A DNA stretch of 64,000 nucleotides from Polyangiaceae bacterium (GTDB lineage: Bacteria > Myxococcota_A > Polyangia > Polyangiales > Polyangiaceae). The stretch is taken from NCBI GenBank assembly GCA_019637295.1, contig JAHBVX010000003.1:744001-808000 (forward strand), given 5' to 3'. Position numbers and translations under genes: made by a program. This document shows positions 23,946 to 30,104 of this stretch, in pieces. The notes under the pieces are model-generated. The model ran no database searches and was not told the origin of the DNA. It saw only the letters and a list, made by a program, of their open reading frames with translations. The number at the start of each line of letters is the position of its first letter. The first letter of the stretch is position 1.

Positions 23946-24935
23946 ATGGTCGGGATGACGAAGGCCACGGTTGGGTTGACGCTGCTCGCCTCGCTCGCGC
24001 TCCTGGTGAGCTGCGGCGGGGACGACTCGGTGACGTTCACGGGAACTGACGGCTCGACCGGCGCGACGGGAGGCAGCAGCGCTGGCGGCTCGGGGGGCTC
24101 GGGCGCAGGCGCAGGCGGCAGCGGCGCAGGCGCAGGCGCAGGCGGCAGCGGCGCAGGCGCAGGCGGCAACGGCGCAAGCGCCGGGAGCGGAGCCGCGAGC
24201 GGCGGCAGCGCCGGCGCGTCCGGTGGCGCTGCGGGCGCCAGCGGTGGCAGCGCCGGCGCCTCGGGTGGGGCCGCTGGCTCCGGCGGCTCCGCGACCGGAG
24301 GCGCCGCAGGCTCGGGGGGCGTGTCGACCGGCGGTTCCACGGGCACCGGCGGCGTCGCGACCGGAGGCACCGGCGGCGTCGCGACCGGAGGCACCGGCGG
24401 CGTCGCGACCGGAGGCACCGGCGGCGTCGCGACCGGAGGCACCGGCGGCGTCGCGACCGGAGGCACCGGCGGCGGCACCGGCATCAGCTGCCAGTCGAAC
24501 GCCCAGTGCAAAGACAGCGACTTCTGCGCCAAGACCAGCTGCAACTCAGCCAACGGCACGTGCACGCCTCGCCCGGTCTCGTGCGCGGACAACGAGAGCC
24601 CCGTGTGCGGTTGCGACGGCATCTCCTACTGGAACGACTGCCTGCGTCAGCAGTACGGCGTGGCCTCCCTGCGCAGCAACTCCGCGTGCATGGGGTTCGA
24701 CGCCGCTGGCTGCGGGCTCACGTCCTGTCCGTCGGCGGACGCCTCCTGCGCCACGCTCCGCAGCAGCTCCCTGGGCTGCCTCGCCCTCGGCGGTGGCGTG
24801 TGCTGGATGGTGCCCAAGTCCTGCCCGACCGCTCCGAAGACGTACCGTCGCTGCGGCACGAGCAGCTCGTGCGCCTCCAAGTGTGAGGCCATCAAGTCCC
24901 AGCAGGAACACCACGCCGATAACACGTGCAGCTGA
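23946..24935 (+). CDS. Gly/Ser-rich lipoprotein with Kazal-like Cys-rich domain
   Basis: This 329-residue lipoprotein has a signal ending LLVSCGGDD (Cys near 24). A long Gly/Ala/Ser/Thr linker (about 35-178) follows, made largely of GAGAGGS and TGGVATGG repeats, and then a Cys-rich C-terminal part. The segment ESPVCGCDGISYWNDC matches a Kazal-type (serine-protease-inhibitor-like) disulfide pattern; about 17 cysteines are present downstream of the linker. It is probably displayed on the cell surface on a flexible tether. SD-like GAAAGG lies 9 nt upstream of the ATG. The linker DNA contains five perfect 24-bp repeats. Confidence 0.78.
   Translation: MVGMTKATVGLTLLASLALLVSCGGDDSVTFTGTDGSTGATGGSSAGGSGGSGAGAGGSGAGAGAGGSGAGAGGNGASAGSGAASGGSAGASGGAAGASGGSAGASGGAAGSGGSATGGAAGSGGVSTGGSTGTGGVATGGTGGVATGGTGGVATGGTGGVATGGTGGVATGGTGGGTGISCQSNAQCKDSDFCAKTSCNSANGTCTPRPVSCADNESPVCGCDGISYWNDCLRQQYGVASLRSNSACMGFDAAGCGLTSCPSADASCATLRSSSLGCLALGGGVCWMVPKSCPTAPKTYRRCGTSSSCASKCEAIKSQQEHHADNTCS
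24342..24461 (+). repeat. Five perfect 24-bp tandem repeats in a lipoprotein linker
   Basis: The unit GGCACCGGCGGCGTCGCGAC+CGGA (24 bp, encoding GTGGVATG) repeats five times without a mismatch, followed by a partial unit. Because the unit is a multiple of three, length changes would keep the frame. Confidence 0.93.
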
Positions 24936-24963: not shown

Positions 24964-25800
24964 ATGACTCGCCTGACGGTGTCGTGGTTCGCGCTGGTGC
25001 TGGCGAGCTGCGCCAAGGATCCACCCCCGCCCCCGGAGCGAACCGAGCCCTGGCAGAACGTCCCGACCACGGCGCCCAAGGGCGCCTTGGCTGCGCGCTT
25101 CGCGATCGAGGGTCGCTGCCAGGCGATCGTGACGCTGCCGGCGAAGGAAGAGACGCCGCGCGGCACCATTCGCGTGGCGCGCGGCGAGCTGCGCACTAAC
25201 CTGCTCGATCTCTCGACCACCACCGGCACCGTCGAGCTCGACGTCGCCTCCATCGCCATGGACCCGGTGAAGGGACAAGACGCGCTCGAGTCGACGCGCA
25301 TGGCGCGCAACTGGCTCAATGTAGGTGACAGTCGACCCGAAGCCGAGCGGGAGCGGCAGCGCTGGGCGAGGTTCGAGATCACGTCCGTCGAGGATCTGAG
25401 CCACTCGGACGCGTTCGAGGCGCGCGCGATCCGCGTGCCCCTGGCGATGGCCGACGGCCAGGCCACGAAGCTCGACGCCAGCGCGCCCTTCGAGGAGCTG
25501 CGGCGGATCCGGCTGACGGCGGTTGGCCGCCTGACGCTGCACGAGATCCGGGTCGAGAAGAAGGTGCCCCTCGAGCTCGAGCTGCGCTGGCAGCGACCCG
25601 CGGAAGGTCGCGAGCCGCCGACCGCGCTGCACATCAGGACCCGCAAACCCCTGGTCGTCACCCTCGCCGCACACGACATCGTGCCCCGAGACACGCGCGG
25701 GGAAGCGGTCACGGCGGATCAGAAGCTGCTCGGGGTCCGAGTCGGGCGCGAGGCCCGCGTGGAGATCTCGCTCGAGGCGCGGCGCCTCGTCAGCGACTGA
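24964..25800 (+). CDS. YceI-like lipoprotein
   Basis: This 278-residue lipoprotein has the signal VSWFALVLASCAKD (Cys near 16). The body resembles the YceI-like lipocalin fold, proteins that bind isoprenoid or amphiphilic ligands. Visible features are RFAIEGRCQAIVTLPAKEE, GTVELDVASIAMDP, DALESTRMARNWL and WARFEITSVEDL, though it is longer than classical YceI (about 190 residues). It lies 28 bp after the Kazal-like lipoprotein and 119 bp before the MNIO-RiPP precursor. A second YceI-like lipoprotein is at 56695-57351. The ATG start was chosen for the signal peptide. Confidence 0.68.
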   Translation: MTRLTVSWFALVLASCAKDPPPPPERTEPWQNVPTTAPKGALAARFAIEGRCQAIVTLPAKEETPRGTIRVARGELRTNLLDLSTTTGTVELDVASIAMDPVKGQDALESTRMARNWLNVGDSRPEAERERQRWARFEITSVEDLSHSDAFEARAIRVPLAMADGQATKLDASAPFEELRRIRLTAVGRLTLHEIRVEKKVPLELELRWQRPAEGREPPTALHIRTRKPLVVTLAAHDIVPRDTRGEAVTADQKLLGVRVGREARVEISLEARRLVSD

Positions 25801-25905
25801 AACCTCCGCCCCCGGGCGGCGTAGTGTGAGCGGTGGCCACGGTTCAAGGGAAATCCGAGCCACTTTCCGAACCGCCCCGCCGGGTGGGTCGTAGTACAGT
25901 TCTTC

Positions 25906-25912
25906 GAAGGAG
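25906..25912 (+). promoter_or_regulatory. Strong RBS of the RiPP precursor gene
   Basis: GAAGGAG, 7 nt before ATG 25920, is one of the best Shine-Dalgarno sequences in the window and fixes the start at the lipoprotein signal. TACAGT at 25895-25900 is a possible -10. Confidence 0.65.
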
Positions 25913-25919
25913 CACCCGA

Positions 25920-26303
25920 ATGTCTCAAAAGCTGTCTTTCTCGACCATCGCCGCCACCCTCGCCGCCCTTGGAGCCGTCGCTTGCGGCGGGGCCGCACCC
26001 GAAGCCGCCAGCCCGGTCGACGCGCAGGAGGTCCCTGCGGCGAGCGAGGAAGCCGAGCCCGACATGGCCGCGTCTGAAGAAGGCAACGCTTCGACGACGG
26101 AAGCGGTCGAGACCGCGCCGGCCGAGACGACGCCCGAGAGCGACGTCGCCGCCACCCCAGCGGTAGACCCCAAGGCCGGCGGCGCGAAGGCCTCCTGCGG
26201 GGCCGGGAGCTGCGGCGCGACGAAGAAGCCCGCCGCGAAGAAGCCCGCGCCCAAGAAGGCGGGCGGCGCGAAGGCGGCGTGTGGCGCCGGAACGTGCGGC
26301 TGA
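25920..26303 (+). CDS. MNIO-type RiPP precursor, lipoprotein bufferin/HvfA-like
   Basis: This 127-residue protein has a lipoprotein signal ending in a lipobox-like GAVACGG (Cys22), an acidic Ala/Glu/Pro/Thr linker (about 25-82), and a basic Lys/Ala/Pro-rich end carrying two copies of a Cys motif: KASCGAGSCG (Cys93, Cys98) and KAACGAGTCG (Cys121, Cys126) at the very C-terminus. It is followed directly by DUF692 (MNIO) and DUF2063 genes, the arrangement of bufferin/HvfABC operons. In characterised members, cysteines in CG-x-G-x-CG / EGKCG motifs are modified to copper-binding heterocycles. Here Ala replaces the usual Glu-Gly-Lys context, and the precursor seems lipid-anchored rather than released. 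Modification and metal binding are inference. Confidence 0.82.
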   Translation: MSQKLSFSTIAATLAALGAVACGGAAPEAASPVDAQEVPAASEEAEPDMAASEEGNASTTEAVETAPAETTPESDVAATPAVDPKAGGAKASCGAGSCGATKKPAAKKPAPKKAGGAKAACGAGTCG

Positions 26304-26338
26304 CGCCCCCGCCGCACACGTTCCGAACGAAGCAACCG

Positions 26339-27193
26339 ATGACTCGATTGGCTGGCGTCGGGCTGGGGCTGCGCTGGGAGTTCCTGGAAGAGGTCCTGGA
26401 CGGCCCCACCCTCGACGTCGCGTTCTTCGAGGTCTCGCCGGAGAACTACATGCGGCGCGGAGGCTGGTACCCTGCCGCGCTCGAGCGCATCGCGGATCGC
26501 TACCCGCTCGTCACACACGGCCTGACGCTGTCCCTCGGCGGCAGCGAGCCGCCCGCGCCGGGCTACCTGGACGAGCTGCGCGCCGAGGTGACGCGCCTCG
26601 GCTCGCCGTGGCACTCGGATCACCTGTGCTGGACCAGCACCGGCGACCGCGTCTTGCACGAGCTTCTGCCCGTGAAGCACTGCGAGCGGACCGTGAGCAT
26701 CGCGGCGGACAACCTCCGCCGAGCACAGGACCTCCTCGGGGTGCCGATGGCCCTGGAGAACATCAGCTGGTACGCCCACTGCGGCGCGCCGGAAATGCCG
26801 GAAGAAGAGCTGCTCTGCCGCATCCTCGAGCGGAGCGGTGCCGGGCTGCTCTTGGACGTGAACAACGTCTACGTCAACTCGCAGAACCACGGCTTCGATC
26901 CGCGGCGCTTCATCGAAGCGCTGCCCCTCGAGCGCGTCGTACAGCTCCACGTCGCGGGCCACACTCGCGTCGAGTCGGGCCTGCTCATCGACACCCACGG
27001 CGCCACCGCCCCGGACCCCGTGCTCGAGCTCCTGGCATTCACCGTGCAGCGCACCGGACCAGTCCCGGTGCTCCTCGAACGGGACAACTTCATTCCGCCG
27101 CTCCCGGAGCTGCTCGCGGAGGTGGCGACCCTGCGCGGCGTGTACGAAGCGGCACTCACACGGCGGGAGGCCTGGCTTGCCGCTAGCGCTTGA
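26339..27193 (+). CDS. MNIO family iron oxygenase (DUF692, BufB/HvfB-like)
   Basis: This 284-residue TIM-barrel enzyme of the DUF692/multinuclear non-heme iron oxygenase family post-translationally oxidises cysteines of the linked precursor. Diagnostic segments are present in order: FFEVSPENYM, THGLTLSLGG, HSDHLCW, LENISWYAHC, LLLDVNNVYVNSQNHGFD, LHVAGH, IDTHGA and LLERDNFIPP. They supply the His/Glu/Asp/Asn ligands expected for a di- or tri-iron site. It starts 35 bp after the precursor stop and overlaps the next gene by 17 bp, a single operon. Length is normal for the family. Confidence 0.92.
   Translation: MTRLAGVGLGLRWEFLEEVLDGPTLDVAFFEVSPENYMRRGGWYPAALERIADRYPLVTHGLTLSLGGSEPPAPGYLDELRAEVTRLGSPWHSDHLCWTSTGDRVLHELLPVKHCERTVSIAADNLRRAQDLLGVPMALENISWYAHCGAPEMPEEELLCRILERSGAGLLLDVNNVYVNSQNHGFDPRRFIEALPLERVVQLHVAGHTRVESGLLIDTHGATAPDPVLELLAFTVQRTGPVPVLLERDNFIPPLPELLAEVATLRGVYEAALTRREAWLAASA
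27165..27170 (+). promoter_or_regulatory. RBS deciding a TTG start
   Basis: GGGAGG lies 6 nt before TTG 27177, inside the end of the MNIO gene. No ATG/GTG with comparable spacing exists in this frame, so a TTG start with translational coupling is the best reading. Confidence 0.6.
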
Positions 27194-27983
27194 GTCCTTC
27201 GTCTCGGAGCTGTGCCTGGCCAGCGACCTCGACGACGACGACGCGCTTCGCGCGGCGCTCGAGCGCCACGGCGTGGACCGCGCCGACCAGACCTACCTTC
27301 TGGCCGCAGCTCGCTCGCGCTTGTTCGTTTATCGCGACCTGGTGCGGGGCACGCTGTGGGAGGCCATGCAGTCGACGATACCCAGAACCGTGAGCCGACT
27401 CGGCGAGGTGTTCGAGGATTACTTCGGCAAGTTCTTGGCCGAGCGGGGTCCGCGCACCCACTACCTGCGCGACGCGCCGCGAGAGCTGCTCGAGTTCTGC
27501 GCGCCGCTGTGGTCCGCTGACCCGCGCGTACCGCCCTACGCGATGGACCTCGCGCGTCACGAGTACGTGCAGATCGAGGTGGGCTCCCAGCAAGCCCGGA
27601 GCGCGCACGCCGAGCCGCAGCCGCTCGAGCTGGACGCCGCGGTGCAGTTCATCGAGGCGGTGCGCCTGATGCACTACGACCACGCGGTGCACCGCCTGTC
27701 CGCCAGCCCGGAGGACCGCGGGGTCCCGGAGGCGAGCCGAACCTCGATCCTGGTGTACCGGAGCCCCGCCCACGAGGTGCGCTACCTGGAGCTGACGCCC
27801 CTGGCCGCCGCCATCCTCGAGCGCCTGCTGCGCCCCAACACCTCGCTGCGCAGCGCCATCCTTCATGCCTGCGAGGCGCTCGGGCAGCCCCTCGCGCCGA
27901 GCGTCCTCGACGGCACGGCGCGGCTTCTGGCGGATCTGGCCGAGCGGGGGGCTGTGCTTGGACGGGCCGAGGCGCCACAATGA
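27177..27983 (+). CDS. DUF2063 partner protein of the MNIO enzyme (BufC/HvfC-like)
   Basis: This 268-residue protein has an N-terminal helical DUF2063 domain (about 10-100): RLFVYRDLVRGTLWEAM, IPRTVSRLGEVFEDYFGKFL and YLRDAPRELLEF. DUF2063 proteins pair with DUF692 enzymes and are thought to bind the precursor and present it to the oxygenase. A middle domain with DLARHEYVQIEV and a C-terminal helical part follow. A TTG start overlaps the MNIO gene by 17 bp. It closes the three-gene cassette; the next gene, a kinase, follows after about 50 bp with its own RBS. Confidence 0.86.
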   Translation: MPLALESFVSELCLASDLDDDDALRAALERHGVDRADQTYLLAAARSRLFVYRDLVRGTLWEAMQSTIPRTVSRLGEVFEDYFGKFLAERGPRTHYLRDAPRELLEFCAPLWSADPRVPPYAMDLARHEYVQIEVGSQQARSAHAEPQPLELDAAVQFIEAVRLMHYDHAVHRLSASPEDRGVPEASRTSILVYRSPAHEVRYLELTPLAAAILERLLRPNTSLRSAILHACEALGQPLAPSVLDGTARLLADLAERGAVLGRAEAPQ

Positions 27984-28027: not shown

Positions 28028-28034
28028 AATGCTC

Positions 28035-30104
28035 GTGGCTGACCAAGACCCGCTCGGCATCATTGGCCACACGGTGGCCGAGAAGTACCAGGTGGAGAAG
28101 CTGGTCGGTGAGGGCGGCTTCGCGGTGGTGTATCGCGCCACCCACGCCATCTGGAAGAAGCCGGTCGCCATCAAGTTCTTCAGCGAGCTGTCCAGCGCCC
28201 CCATCAACCAGCGCGACGAACTGCAGCAAGCCTTCATCCAGGAAGGAGCGCTGCTCACGGAGCTGTCCAGCGAGACCGCCGGCATCGTGCAAGCCCGGGA
28301 CGTGGGCACCTTCACGACTCCGGACGGTCGCTGGATGCCGTTCATGGTGCTCGAGTGGCTGGAGGGCGGGTCGCTCGAAGATCTCATCGTCCAGGATCAG
28401 AGCAGCGGTCGCGGGGCCTGGTCGCTGGATCAGATGCGCAACGTCCTGCGCAAAGCGGGGCAAGCGCTGGACGTCGCGCACGGCAAGGGCATCGCCCATC
28501 GCGACATCAAGCCGGCGAACATCTTCGTGCTCGGGGATGCGCGCAACCCAGAGGTGACGGTGAAGTTGCTCGACTTCGGCGTCGCCAAGATGATCACTGA
28601 CAACACGCAGATGAAGGCCGCTCTGGCCAAGACCGGCACGGGTATCACGTCCTTCACGCCCCAGTACGGCGCGCCCGAACAGTTCAGCCGCAGCTATGGC
28701 GCCACCGGCCCGTGGACGGACGTGTTCGCGCTAGCGCTCGTGGGCGTGGAGCTGCTCCTCGGGCGCGCGGCGCTCGACGGCGACGACGTCATTCAGCTCG
28801 CGTACAGCGCCGGCAACGGAGAGAATCGACCCACGCCGCGGGCGCTCGGGCTGAGCGTCCCAGACGCCGTCGAGGCCGTGTTCGCCCGGGCGCTCGCCGT
28901 GGCGCCGGCCGCACGCTACGCCCGCGCCGGCGAGTTCGTGGCAGCCCTCGACGCGGCGCTGGCCGAAGTGTCGGCCGAAGAGCGAGGCGCGGTCGGCGCC
29001 GTCGGCGAGCGAGTCGCGTTGGCGCGCACCATCGCCGCGACGGACCCGTCCTTGGCCGCCGCCTCGACGGCGATCACCGCCGGACACGCTAGCAACACCA
29101 CCGCCATGACCGCCGCCGCGTCGGGCCCAGCGCCCGCATCCGGGAGCAAGGTGCTGCTGCTGGTCGGCGGCGCCGCGGCCTTGCTCGTCGGTGTCGGCGC
29201 CGTCGTGATGGTGCTGCGCAGCCCCGGCGAGCAGCCCGCAGCGGAGACGCCCGCCCCCAGCGCGTCGGTGCCCGCGGCCGCCAGCGCCGAGCCGCCGCCG
29301 GAGTGCCCCGACGGCATGGTCAAGATCCCAGGCGGCGAGTTCTACATGGGCTCGGACGATCCGAACGCGCCCGACAACGAGAAGCCCGCGCACAACGTGC
29401 TGCTCGCACCGTACTGCATCGACCTGCACGAGGTCACGCGCAAGGCGTATCTGGAGTGCTCCGGACGCGGCGCGTGCCCGCGGGCCGCTCGCCAGGCCTA
29501 CTGGCCGAACATCACCAAGTCCGACGAGAAGGCATACTCGCAGCTGTGCAACGAGGCCGCCCCGGAGCGCGACGACCACCCGATCAACTGCGTGACGTGG
29601 CAGCAGGCGGATACCTACTGCAAGCGCCAGGGCAAGCGACTGCCCACGGAGGCGGAGTGGGAGTTCGCCACGCGGGGCCCCGATGGCCGGATCTACCCGT
29701 GGGGCGACGATGATCCGACCACGTTGCACCTGAATGCCTGCGACAAGGACTGCGCAGACTGGGCGACCCGAGCCCGGGTGGACGTGCGCGTGCTGTTCGA
29801 GAACGAGAGCGACGGTTTCGCAGCCACGTCGCCCGTCGGCAAGTACGAGCGCGGGAAGTCTCGCTTCGGACCGTACGACGTGGTCGGTAACGTGTGGGAG
29901 TGGGCCAGCGACTACAAGGGACGCTACACCAAGGACCAAGCGCGCAACCCCACCGGTCCGGAGTCGGGGGAGCGCCGCGTCATCCGCGGCGGCGCGTGGA
30001 ACGGCGGCGACAAGAGCTGGCTTCGGCCTTCGTTCCGCTATGGCAGCGATCCCGAGGTGCGCTCTCCTGCCATCGGCTTCCGCTGCGCCAAGCCCATCGA
30101 GTGA
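28035..30104 (+). CDS. Ser/Thr kinase fused to an FGE-like (SUMF1) domain
   Basis: This 689-residue protein has a cytoplasmic kinase domain (about 18-290) with EGGFAVVYRA, ATP-Lys in VAIKFF, HRDIKPAN and DFGVAK; the Ala/Pro linker contains many Thr/Ser. One transmembrane helix (about 371-394) leads to a periplasmic formylglycine-generating-enzyme-like domain (about 423-687): MVKIPGGEFYMGSDDP, CVTWQQADTYCKRQGKRLPTEAEWEFA, NVWEWASDY, RGGAWNGGDKSW and GFRCAKP. The cysteine pair of active FGE, which lies just after RGG(S/A)(W/Y), is missing (NGGDKSWLRPSFRY), so I read this domain as a ligand-sensing module. It starts at GTG 28035, set by AGGAGG. Confidence 0.9.
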   Translation: MADQDPLGIIGHTVAEKYQVEKLVGEGGFAVVYRATHAIWKKPVAIKFFSELSSAPINQRDELQQAFIQEGALLTELSSETAGIVQARDVGTFTTPDGRWMPFMVLEWLEGGSLEDLIVQDQSSGRGAWSLDQMRNVLRKAGQALDVAHGKGIAHRDIKPANIFVLGDARNPEVTVKLLDFGVAKMITDNTQMKAALAKTGTGITSFTPQYGAPEQFSRSYGATGPWTDVFALALVGVELLLGRAALDGDDVIQLAYSAGNGENRPTPRALGLSVPDAVEAVFARALAVAPAARYARAGEFVAALDAALAEVSAEERGAVGAVGERVALARTIAATDPSLAAASTAITAGHASNTTAMTAAASGPAPASGSKVLLLVGGAAALLVGVGAVVMVLRSPGEQPAAETPAPSASVPAAASAEPPPECPDGMVKIPGGEFYMGSDDPNAPDNEKPAHNVLLAPYCIDLHEVTRKAYLECSGRGACPRAARQAYWPNITKSDEKAYSQLCNEAAPERDDHPINCVTWQQADTYCKRQGKRLPTEAEWEFATRGPDGRIYPWGDDDPTTLHLNACDKDCADWATRARVDVRVLFENESDGFAATSPVGKYERGKSRFGPYDVVGNVWEWASDYKGRYTKDQARNPTGPESGERRVIRGGAWNGGDKSWLRPSFRYGSDPEVRSPAIGFRCAKPIE

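Follow-up and report, generated by a model that had tools for sequence, protein, structure and literature searches.

Precursor peptides linked to MNIO (DUF692) enzymes fall into several described classes. A landscape paper published in 2025 lists Buf1, Buf2, EGKCG, and a CxxxxC family of 76 proteins, together with hundreds of unnamed small precursors, and predicts ~16% of Buf2 bufferins to be lipoproteins (PMC12452194). A preprint on lipidated ribosomally synthesized and post-translationally modified peptides (RiPPs), the DAG-RiPPs, demonstrates lipidation of DybA and NedA. NedA, an EGKCG precursor with a lipobox, was triacylated when made in E. coli and carried a core modification of -12 Da; the same work describes Cluster X, uncharacterized MNIO-linked lipoproteins with a conserved CxxxxC (PMC12636315). 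The authors of a further study state that all characterized pairs of an MNIO and a type 1 PME partner (MNIO-PME1) install 5-thiooxazole (PMC13097082). Caulobacter has two MNIO operons under the control of SigF and NrsF; copper induces both, and a sigF mutant is copper sensitive (PMC8224329). In Myxococcus, CorE is a copper ECF sigma factor. Here we describe a cassette of a lipobox-bearing precursor, an MNIO, and a PME-type 1 partner from a Polyangiaceae bacterium (order Polyangiales). It lies in a stretch of 64,000 nucleotides (hereafter the window; GCA_019637295.1, contig JAHBVX010000003.1, positions 744,001 to 808,000) that is part of a 7.65-Mb genome.

The cassette is real, conserved, and of a known kind, and it is a distinct variant that combines a lipobox with Ser/Thr-Cys motifs. 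Like the oxazolins (Buf_EGKCG; HvfABC) and the fontiphorin-type captophorins, it has an A-B-C gene order, an MNIO with a PME1 partner, repeated xGxCG 5-mers, and a Sec signal, and its enzyme falls on the same side of the MNIO tree. Unlike them, it has Ser/Thr rather than Lys before the cysteine, a long Ala/Pro/Lys linker, and a motif at or near the C terminus; its enzymes also differ from oxazolin enzymes, with Trp at the second Arg site in 44/64 and Asn/Gln/His in place of Phe250 in 58/64 loci of the order. With DAG-RiPPs (NedA and Cluster X) it shares the lipobox and the MNIO core, and its CxxxxC fits Cluster X, a likeness drawn from the description of that cluster only. Regulation is absent from the compared sections of that preprint (PMC12636315), whereas a promoter-like element is reported here. 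The CxxxxC family of Antoine et al. 2025 is alike in signal peptide, MNIO, DUF2063, and CxxxxC, the last being compared by spacing only; 54% of its biosynthetic gene clusters have a Lactamase_B_2 gene, and DoxX is named as a core gene (PMC12452194). No DoxX, a gene of bufferin-type clusters, was found among the five window neighbors scanned with Pfam. A Pectobacterium plasmid locus with the CxxxxC-family layout differs in having a precursor without a lipobox and a long-branched enzyme outside the window clade. As in Caulobacter, where Buf1 and Buf2 are under SigF-NrsF, the genome has two MNIO operons and an extracytoplasmic function (ECF) sigma/NrsF pair, here sharing a promoter-like element, but one arm is a CGxG(S/T)CG lipoprotein rather than a DUF2282 protein.

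An earlier reading of the window made without database searches (the sequence-only reading) had regarded the lipid anchor as unusual. We dropped this claim to novelty because lipidated MNIO products had already appeared in print in 2025, as Buf2 lipoproteins (PMC12452194) and as NedA and Cluster X (PMC12636315). What is new is this variant, its spread, a likely shared stress control, and a membrane kinase gene that many relatives also have directly downstream. Among the papers searched, none names both MNIO and Polyangi-.

Results

A conserved lipobox precursor with paired Ser/Thr-Cys motifs

The precursor is a 127-aa protein with a lipobox, an acidic/Ala/Pro linker behind Cys22, and two C-terminal CGAG(S/T)CG motifs at residues 93-99 and 121-127, as the sequence-only reading had described. 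The gene arrangement it gave is likewise exact: the MNIO coding sequence starts 35 bp after the precursor stop and overlaps the TTG-start DUF2063 gene by 17 bp (Table 1). The proposed MNIO plus DUF2063 pairing is borne out by Pfam. The enzyme is an MNIO by PF05114 (301 bits; cut-off, 25), and the third protein is a PME-type 1 partner, with both NGO1945_C (PF22106; 63.6 bits; cut-off, 27) and DUF2063 (PF09836; 33.6 bits; cut-off, 27.2) above their cut-offs. No PDB chain was matched by the sequence of this partner, and the precursor had no Pfam or NCBIfam match at E <= 1.

Eight homologues of the same family align with the window precursor at 45-71% identity, which identifies its gene as a conserved gene and not a chance open reading frame (ORF). 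Invariant positions in this alignment are found in the signal peptide, in a post-lipobox element (P-x-x-A-x-E-V-x-A-A), and in a C-terminal CGxGxCG, which is part of a shared terminal pattern (K-K-x-x-G-x-x-x-x-C-G-x-G-x-C-G); the acidic/Ala/Pro linker between the lipobox element and the C terminus is variable. Within this set, the core is present twice in the window and in its congener L042, and the other seven homologues have a single CGxGxCG. More than one Cys motif is likewise seen in L005, L046, and L185, and extra Cys units follow soon behind the lipobox in L057, L058, L064, L066, L067, and L070. Because the signal peptide is conserved beyond hydrophobicity, it would fit a published suggestion that signal sequences contribute to the recognition site (PMC12452194). 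We judged the lipobox by our own sequence pattern, not by SignalP, and found it in 62/81 loci, including the window (GAVAC). A signal peptidase II lipobox on an MNIO-linked precursor marks the protein, by sequence, as a predicted RiPP lipoprotein (DAG-RiPP), which agrees with the lipoprotein type assigned earlier.

The window repeats read KASCG-AGSCG and KAACG-AGTCG. They keep the five-residue spacing of EGKCG, and Lys never precedes Cys; the repeated EGKCG by which Buf_EGKCG/oxazolin precursors are recognized is absent from the window precursor. In 62 precursors, the residue before the core Cys (n = 222) is most commonly Ser (118), then Thr (41), with Lys in 12 cases. The final CxxxxC of these precursors is CGAGTC (28), CGEGSC (20), CGEGTC (5), CGPGTC (2), CGQGTC (2), CGAGSC (2), or one of three single forms. 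Because distant families of the order carry EGSCG, nearer ones EGTCG or AGTCG, and a few GKC (L005 and L046), the core motif is, on sequence, an EGKCG 5-mer in which Ser/Thr replaces Lys. Hence, the departure from EGKCG claimed by the sequence-only reading is seen, but it is mainly confined to the Lys position, and the 5-mer is kept in relatives. In vitro, FonBC tolerates Thr at position 3 as well as Ala at position 5, and it modified a two-repeat peptide but not a one-repeat peptide (PMC13097082); each CGxG(S/T)CG is a two-repeat unit.

The cassette is widespread in the order

The window MNIO has matches at E <= 1e-20 in 157/183 genomes of the order, a count that includes second, different MNIO genes. 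From 160 homologous loci, retrieved with enzyme patterns containing R[WFH] and RD[NHQ], we kept the best 80 as named loci and added the window (81 in total). The named loci are mostly from Myxococcota (Polyangiaceae metagenome-assembled genomes, Labilithrix, Sorangium, Polyangium, Minicystis, Nannocystis, Sandaracinus, and others), and a few are labeled otherwise, e.g., Holophagaceae. In 61 of the 80 named loci and in the window, a script called an upstream ORF that has a lipobox with cysteines close by and stops no more than about 420 bp before the MNIO gene; all of these ORFs contain one CxxxxC or more. Two more lipobox precursors with CxxxxC were recognized by eye (L104, with ...CGEDNCG, and L164, 433 bp upstream). 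In total, 63/80 named loci have a lipobox precursor with a paired-Cys CxxxxC no more than about 435 bp from the MNIO gene.

Seven of the 19 script-negative loci start too near a contig end (L130, L131, L135, L148, L160, L161, and L178), which leaves 73 assessable loci. No such precursor lies beside the MNIO gene in eight of these (L102, L114, L119, L154, L158, L165, L166, and L169). For L114 (genome G093, contig C50; L054), a precursor with both motifs is found ~2.4 kb upstream of the MNIO gene, with a 624-codon open frame inserted between the two genes. Genome searches gave no convincing precursor copy in G099 (for L102) or G076 (for L119); stand-alone candidates in these genomes were rejected, as the matches were weak and the core motif was absent from the three inspected (L187, L188, and L192). 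In L144, the lipobox precursor has three cysteines that are spaced further apart, without CxxxxC spacing (seen in its duplicate L088), and L180, from an uncultured Holophagaceae, has a related MNIO and a precursor with SCGKGSCG and no lipobox, possibly an outgroup state. The sequence-only reading had held that related operons without the Cys motifs would tell against it; this check gave the eight loci above without an adjacent precursor, of which one (L114) is explained by the inserted frame, and two precursor-like ORFs that are without the CxxxxC spacing (L144) or the lipobox (L180).

The MNIO is placed with EGKCG-type enzymes

An AlphaFold2 model of the MNIO (pLDDT 89.8) has its best solved fold match in 3BWW (TM 0.79/0.89), a DUF692 protein 72% identical to HvfB (PMC13419390); TglH and MbnB were also matched. 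Metal-site residues are conserved across 64 loci of the order and nine plasmid controls. In a midpoint-rooted tree of 55 rows, the window enzyme lies on one side with two EGKCG/KC-type controls, apart from the Buf1/Buf2-type controls and 16 further MNIO loci of the order, and this split is supported at 99/99. On the EGKCG side, support for the order's own clade of 33 reaches only 83/72; a very long branch leads to one of the controls (L183). The tree thus places the enzyme with the oxazolin (HvfB) side, in keeping with the HvfABC-like relationship proposed earlier.

The published specificity sites of FonB are Arg16 and Phe250 (PMC13097082). We counted residues at the equivalent sites in the 64 order loci, including the second MNIO of the same genome (L100), in preference to the 80 named loci because the retrieval patterns R[WFH] and RD[NHQ] bias these very residues. 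The second-Arg site has Trp in 44 loci, Tyr in 5, Phe in 4, His in 2, and other residues in 9, and the Phe250 site has Asn/Gln/His in 58. Asn250 was rejected as a clade-specific residue, since it is also found in the Pectobacterium, Rhizobium, and Agrobacterium plasmid controls. Another residue, His92, stands directly before Ser-Asp/Glu-His in 62/64 order loci and in none of the nine plasmid control enzymes, and it is absent from the genome's second MNIO. Among 20 further loci of the order, two have His92, both with CGxGSC precursors, and three (L213, L214, and L216) have Tyr92 despite CGAGSC precursors; L099 has Tyr92 as well. A canonical metal ligand at position 92 was ruled out, as the controls have Val/Phe/Tyr/Ile there. 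On these counts His92 is a clade feature.

A promoter-like element shared with a second MNIO operon and an ECF sigma/NrsF pair

The genome has a second MNIO operon (G000:C25:250264-251553; L100, L001). Its MNIO passes the BufB model (338.3 bits; cut-off, 310), and the next ORF looks DUF2063-like by eye; its precursor is of the Buf2 type (NECKSKGGC) and also has a lipobox. The NxCK precursor type recurs in 9/20 further loci of the order. An element, GAAAC-N16-CGTA, ends 96 bp before the precursor start in the window, and GAAAC-N17-CGTA is found ~114 bp before the Buf2-type precursor. The form differs from the TGTAAC...CGAA sequences listed for S. meliloti RpoE7.

We examined the regions upstream of 62 precursors, taking 300 bp for the spacing count and 250 bp for a shuffle test; many of the loci are related, so the counts are not independent. 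The spacing from GAAAC to CGT peaks at 16 (26 cases), with five cases at 17 and at most three at any other value. GAAAC-N14-19-CGT is present in 31/62 regions, against a mean of 2.0 and a maximum of 7 in 200 shuffles, and the strict GAAAC-N16/17-CGTA in 29/62, where 0.33 would be expected from its frequency in the rest of these loci. Of 21 further loci of the order, 18 yielded a lipobox precursor, and 11 of these 18 have the element (shuffle mean, 0.24; maximum, 2), comprising 8/13 second-type and 3/5 CGxGSC-type loci.

Across the window's own genome, the strict form occurs 24 times (10 for a reversed-pattern control). Sites precede the window operon, the Buf2-type operon, an ECF sigma gene, a gene for a VTT + Pyr_redox fusion, and a gene without a Pfam match; many of the remaining sites look like chance. 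The ECF sigma gene lies directly behind its element and is followed by an NrsF gene (51.4 bits; cut-off, 26.8) and a thioredoxin-like gene (G000:C2:111000-115000; L248). The VTT + Pyr_redox protein (G000:C3:217295 onward; L249:525-2708) resembles mercury(II) reductase, under the cut-off (381.3 of 454.45 bits). The element also accompanies homologues of the sigma factor, being found within 350 bp upstream of the conserved domain in 27/30 and in 22/23 of the closest (shuffle mean, 0.46; maximum, 3); an NrsF homologue adjoins 25/30. In L142 and L177, a sigma homologue lies directly behind the PME gene, inside the MNIO operon, and in G162 and G163 one lies, by coordinates, ~1 kb behind the MNIO gene.

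These patterns suggest that the window operon and the Buf2-type operon probably both depend on an ECF sigma factor that an NrsF anti-sigma factor restrains, and the genome's own ECF sigma may be the one that reads the element. Given the shared element, the sigma/NrsF pair, and the case of Caulobacter SigF, we infer that copper or a related stress would induce the window operon. This apparent common control of two lipobox-bearing arms seems to us the most useful addition of this work.

Neighboring genes

A Ser/Thr kinase gene starts 45 bp after the PME gene in the window (Table 1). A kinase lies directly behind the PME gene (<= 300 bp from the aligned PME end) in 22 of the 80 named loci as well as in the window, and in 16/18 named loci with an MNIO at least 60% identical. 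Most complete kinase homologues end in an FGE-like sequence. We dropped the idea that this domain is a copper enzyme, as the listed C-terminal ends of the kinase homologues do not have the paired Cys of true FGE. In one study, a Hanks kinase reportedly phosphorylates an ECF sigma factor (PMC13147305); a kinase-sigma link at the window locus is speculation.

A YceI-like gene was matched by tblastn in 36/81 loci, the window included; among the 30 YceI matches listed, most immediately precede the precursor in the same orientation and four do not. The words "kinase" and "YceI" are absent from the main text of the landscape paper (PMC12452194). Further upstream in the window (23946-24935), another lipobox protein combines long repeats, of Gly/Ser/Ala and of Thr-Gly-Gly, with a Cys-rich end, and it has no Pfam match at E <= 0.01. 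As a separate observation, L070, which shares a contig with L134, has two small GMHCxxC (heavy-metal-associated) proteins upstream of its repeat-rich precursor, which belongs to this family; the two proteins end about 0.7 and 1.1 kb ahead of the MNIO gene.

Table 1. Features of the cassette and its flanks, in window coordinates
Feature	Position	Strand	Basis or remark
YceI-like lipoprotein gene, 278 aa	24964..25800	+	PF04264 21.1 bits, under 23.7 cut-off
ECF-type promoter-like element GAAAC-N16-CGTA	25799..25823	+	T preceding the element opens the YceI stop codon
Probable ribosome-binding site AGGAG	25908..25912	+	read from sequence
Precursor lipoprotein, 127 aa	25920..26303	+	sequence; conserved in relatives
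Lipoprotein signal peptide, lipobox GAVAC	25920..25985	+	predicted lipidated Cys22 at 25983-25985
Core motif 1, CGAGSCG, residues 93-99 (Cys93, Cys98)	26196..26216	+	sequence
Core motif 2, CGAGTCG, residues 121-127 (Cys121, Cys126), C-terminal end	26280..26300	+	sequence
MNIO (DUF692) enzyme, 284 aa	26339..27193	+	PF05114 301 bits
PME-type-1 partner (DUF2063 + NGO1945_C/RRE-like), 268 aa, TTG start	27177..27983	+	PF22106, PF09836
Ser/Thr kinase with C-terminal FGE-sulfatase-like domain	28029..30104	+	PF00069 111.9 bits, PF03781 188.4 bits

Discussion

From the computed gene identities, conservation, lipobox, motif class, enzyme lineage, and shared promoter-like element, we infer a chemistry, lipidation, metal, location, and regulation for the product. 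We think it probable that the cassette makes an envelope-anchored RiPP lipoprotein of the captophorin/oxazolin type, exported, lipidated, and buffering copper. In the cytoplasm, the MNIO and its PME partner would modify the four C-terminal cysteines, arranged as two tandem xGxCG-like pairs, with 5-thiooxazoles as the likeliest product (-4 Da per cysteine, about -16 Da overall). After export of the precursor by Sec, lipidation at Cys22 and cleavage by signal peptidase II would follow, and the Lys/Pro/Ala-rich stalk would present the modified tips in the periplasm. Under stress, the tips may capture Cu(I) there, and possibly further soft metals. Transcription would probably rely on an ECF sigma factor under an NrsF anti-sigma factor, in common with the Buf2-type MNIO operon.

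Several observations weigh against this interpretation. The enzyme falls short of both the HvfB equivalog (NF003818; 265.4 of 360 bits) and the BufB equivalog (NF050167; 273.7 of 310 bits), and the partner falls short of the HvfC equivalog (NF050145; 99.8 of 142 bits). On the HvfB model, the N. gonorrhoeae control passes (372), and the Pectobacterium control (303.6) and the relatives L041 (267.1) and L083 (301.9) fail; the BufB cut-off is passed by the genome's second MNIO and two plasmid controls (371.4 and 391.5). The Pectobacterium enzyme, L041, and L083 pass neither cut-off. By our counts, the residues at the sites that mark known Lys-Cys enzymes (the second Arg and Phe250) are different here. 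As to the substrate, Ala at position 6 lowered FonBC turnover (PMC13097082) and the window motif has Ala at that position (the residue after Cys-Gly, as in CG-A-G-T), and Ser at position 3 is not reported for FonBC in the same section of that study. To these we add the 8/73 assessable loci that lack an adjacent precursor and the rarity of HMA- or P-type-ATPase-like motifs near the MNIO gene, which a crude scan found in only 4/81 loci. On the side of regulation, the strict element is missing from 33/62 precursor upstream regions, the sigma homologues of L142 and L177 are only 42-44% identical to that of the window's genome, and no NrsF homologue was found beside them.

The same cassette might instead perform another chemistry, with a product other than 5-thiooxazoles on the paired cysteines, for example a ring of the kind that ChrH/DybH form on CPACGMG, or a product not seen before that clade-specific residues would enable. 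His92, nearly constant in the order loci and absent from the plasmid controls and the genome's second MNIO, could be such a residue, and a near-C-terminal Cys pair also marks CPACGMG substrates (PMC12636315). We nevertheless regard this as unlikely: the tree places the enzyme with EGKCG-type enzymes, the ChrH model gives only 55.9 bits of its 600 cut-off, Tyr92 is possible with CGAGSC precursors (L213, L214, L216, and L099), and every characterized MNIO-PME1 pair is said by the authors of one study to give 5-thiooxazole (PMC13097082). A related question concerns the target, since the product could be a tethered metallophore that serves mainly for gold, silver, mercury, or cadmium, or for defense against oxidants. 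The bufferin, oxazolin, and fontiphorin/gonophorin products described in the cited sections bind copper (PMC12452194, PMC13097082), and we hold a chiefly non-copper role to be quite improbable, even though SigF/NrsF-type systems have also been linked to chromate, cadmium, and oxidants (PMC8224329, PMC6180224) and the element in this genome also precedes the protein that resembles mercury(II) reductase below the cut-off.

Nor do we give much credence to an unmodified Cys-rich lipoprotein next to an MNIO that acts on some other substrate, an explanation with a very small chance of being right. No computational tool indicates modification, and the adjacent precursor is missing or displaced in L102, L114, and L119. 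Yet gene order and core motif persist among precursors whose linkers vary, both motifs are still present in the displaced G093 copy, and the next match to the precursor in its own genome reaches only E 3e-4, all of which speaks against this explanation.

A broader version of the favored interpretation is tentative, and we doubt it more than we believe it. Polyangiales may have two-armed, lipid-anchored copper buffering under one ECF-sigma/NrsF switch, with a Buf2-type arm and a CGxG(S/T)CG arm. The latter would form a captophorin subclass apart, with a distinct MNIO lineage (His92 and, for the most part, an aromatic residue 13) and a stalk that reaches into the envelope; in close relatives, the linked Ser/Thr kinase with its FGE-like outer domain would sense or report the loaded lipoprotein.

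If the favored interpretation is true, an oxazolin-like metal-binding modification is distributed across a myxobacterial order in tethered form, and the sigma/anti-sigma logic of the Caulobacter copper-stress response has been kept while the peptide was exchanged. The family would also offer material for two questions. One is how a signal-bearing precursor is modified before export, because the signal peptide and the post-lipobox element are conserved as a recognition site would be. The other is how the residues flanking the cysteine are dictated by the active sites of MNIO enzymes, because natural Ser/Thr substrates pair here with enzyme changes at the published specificity sites.

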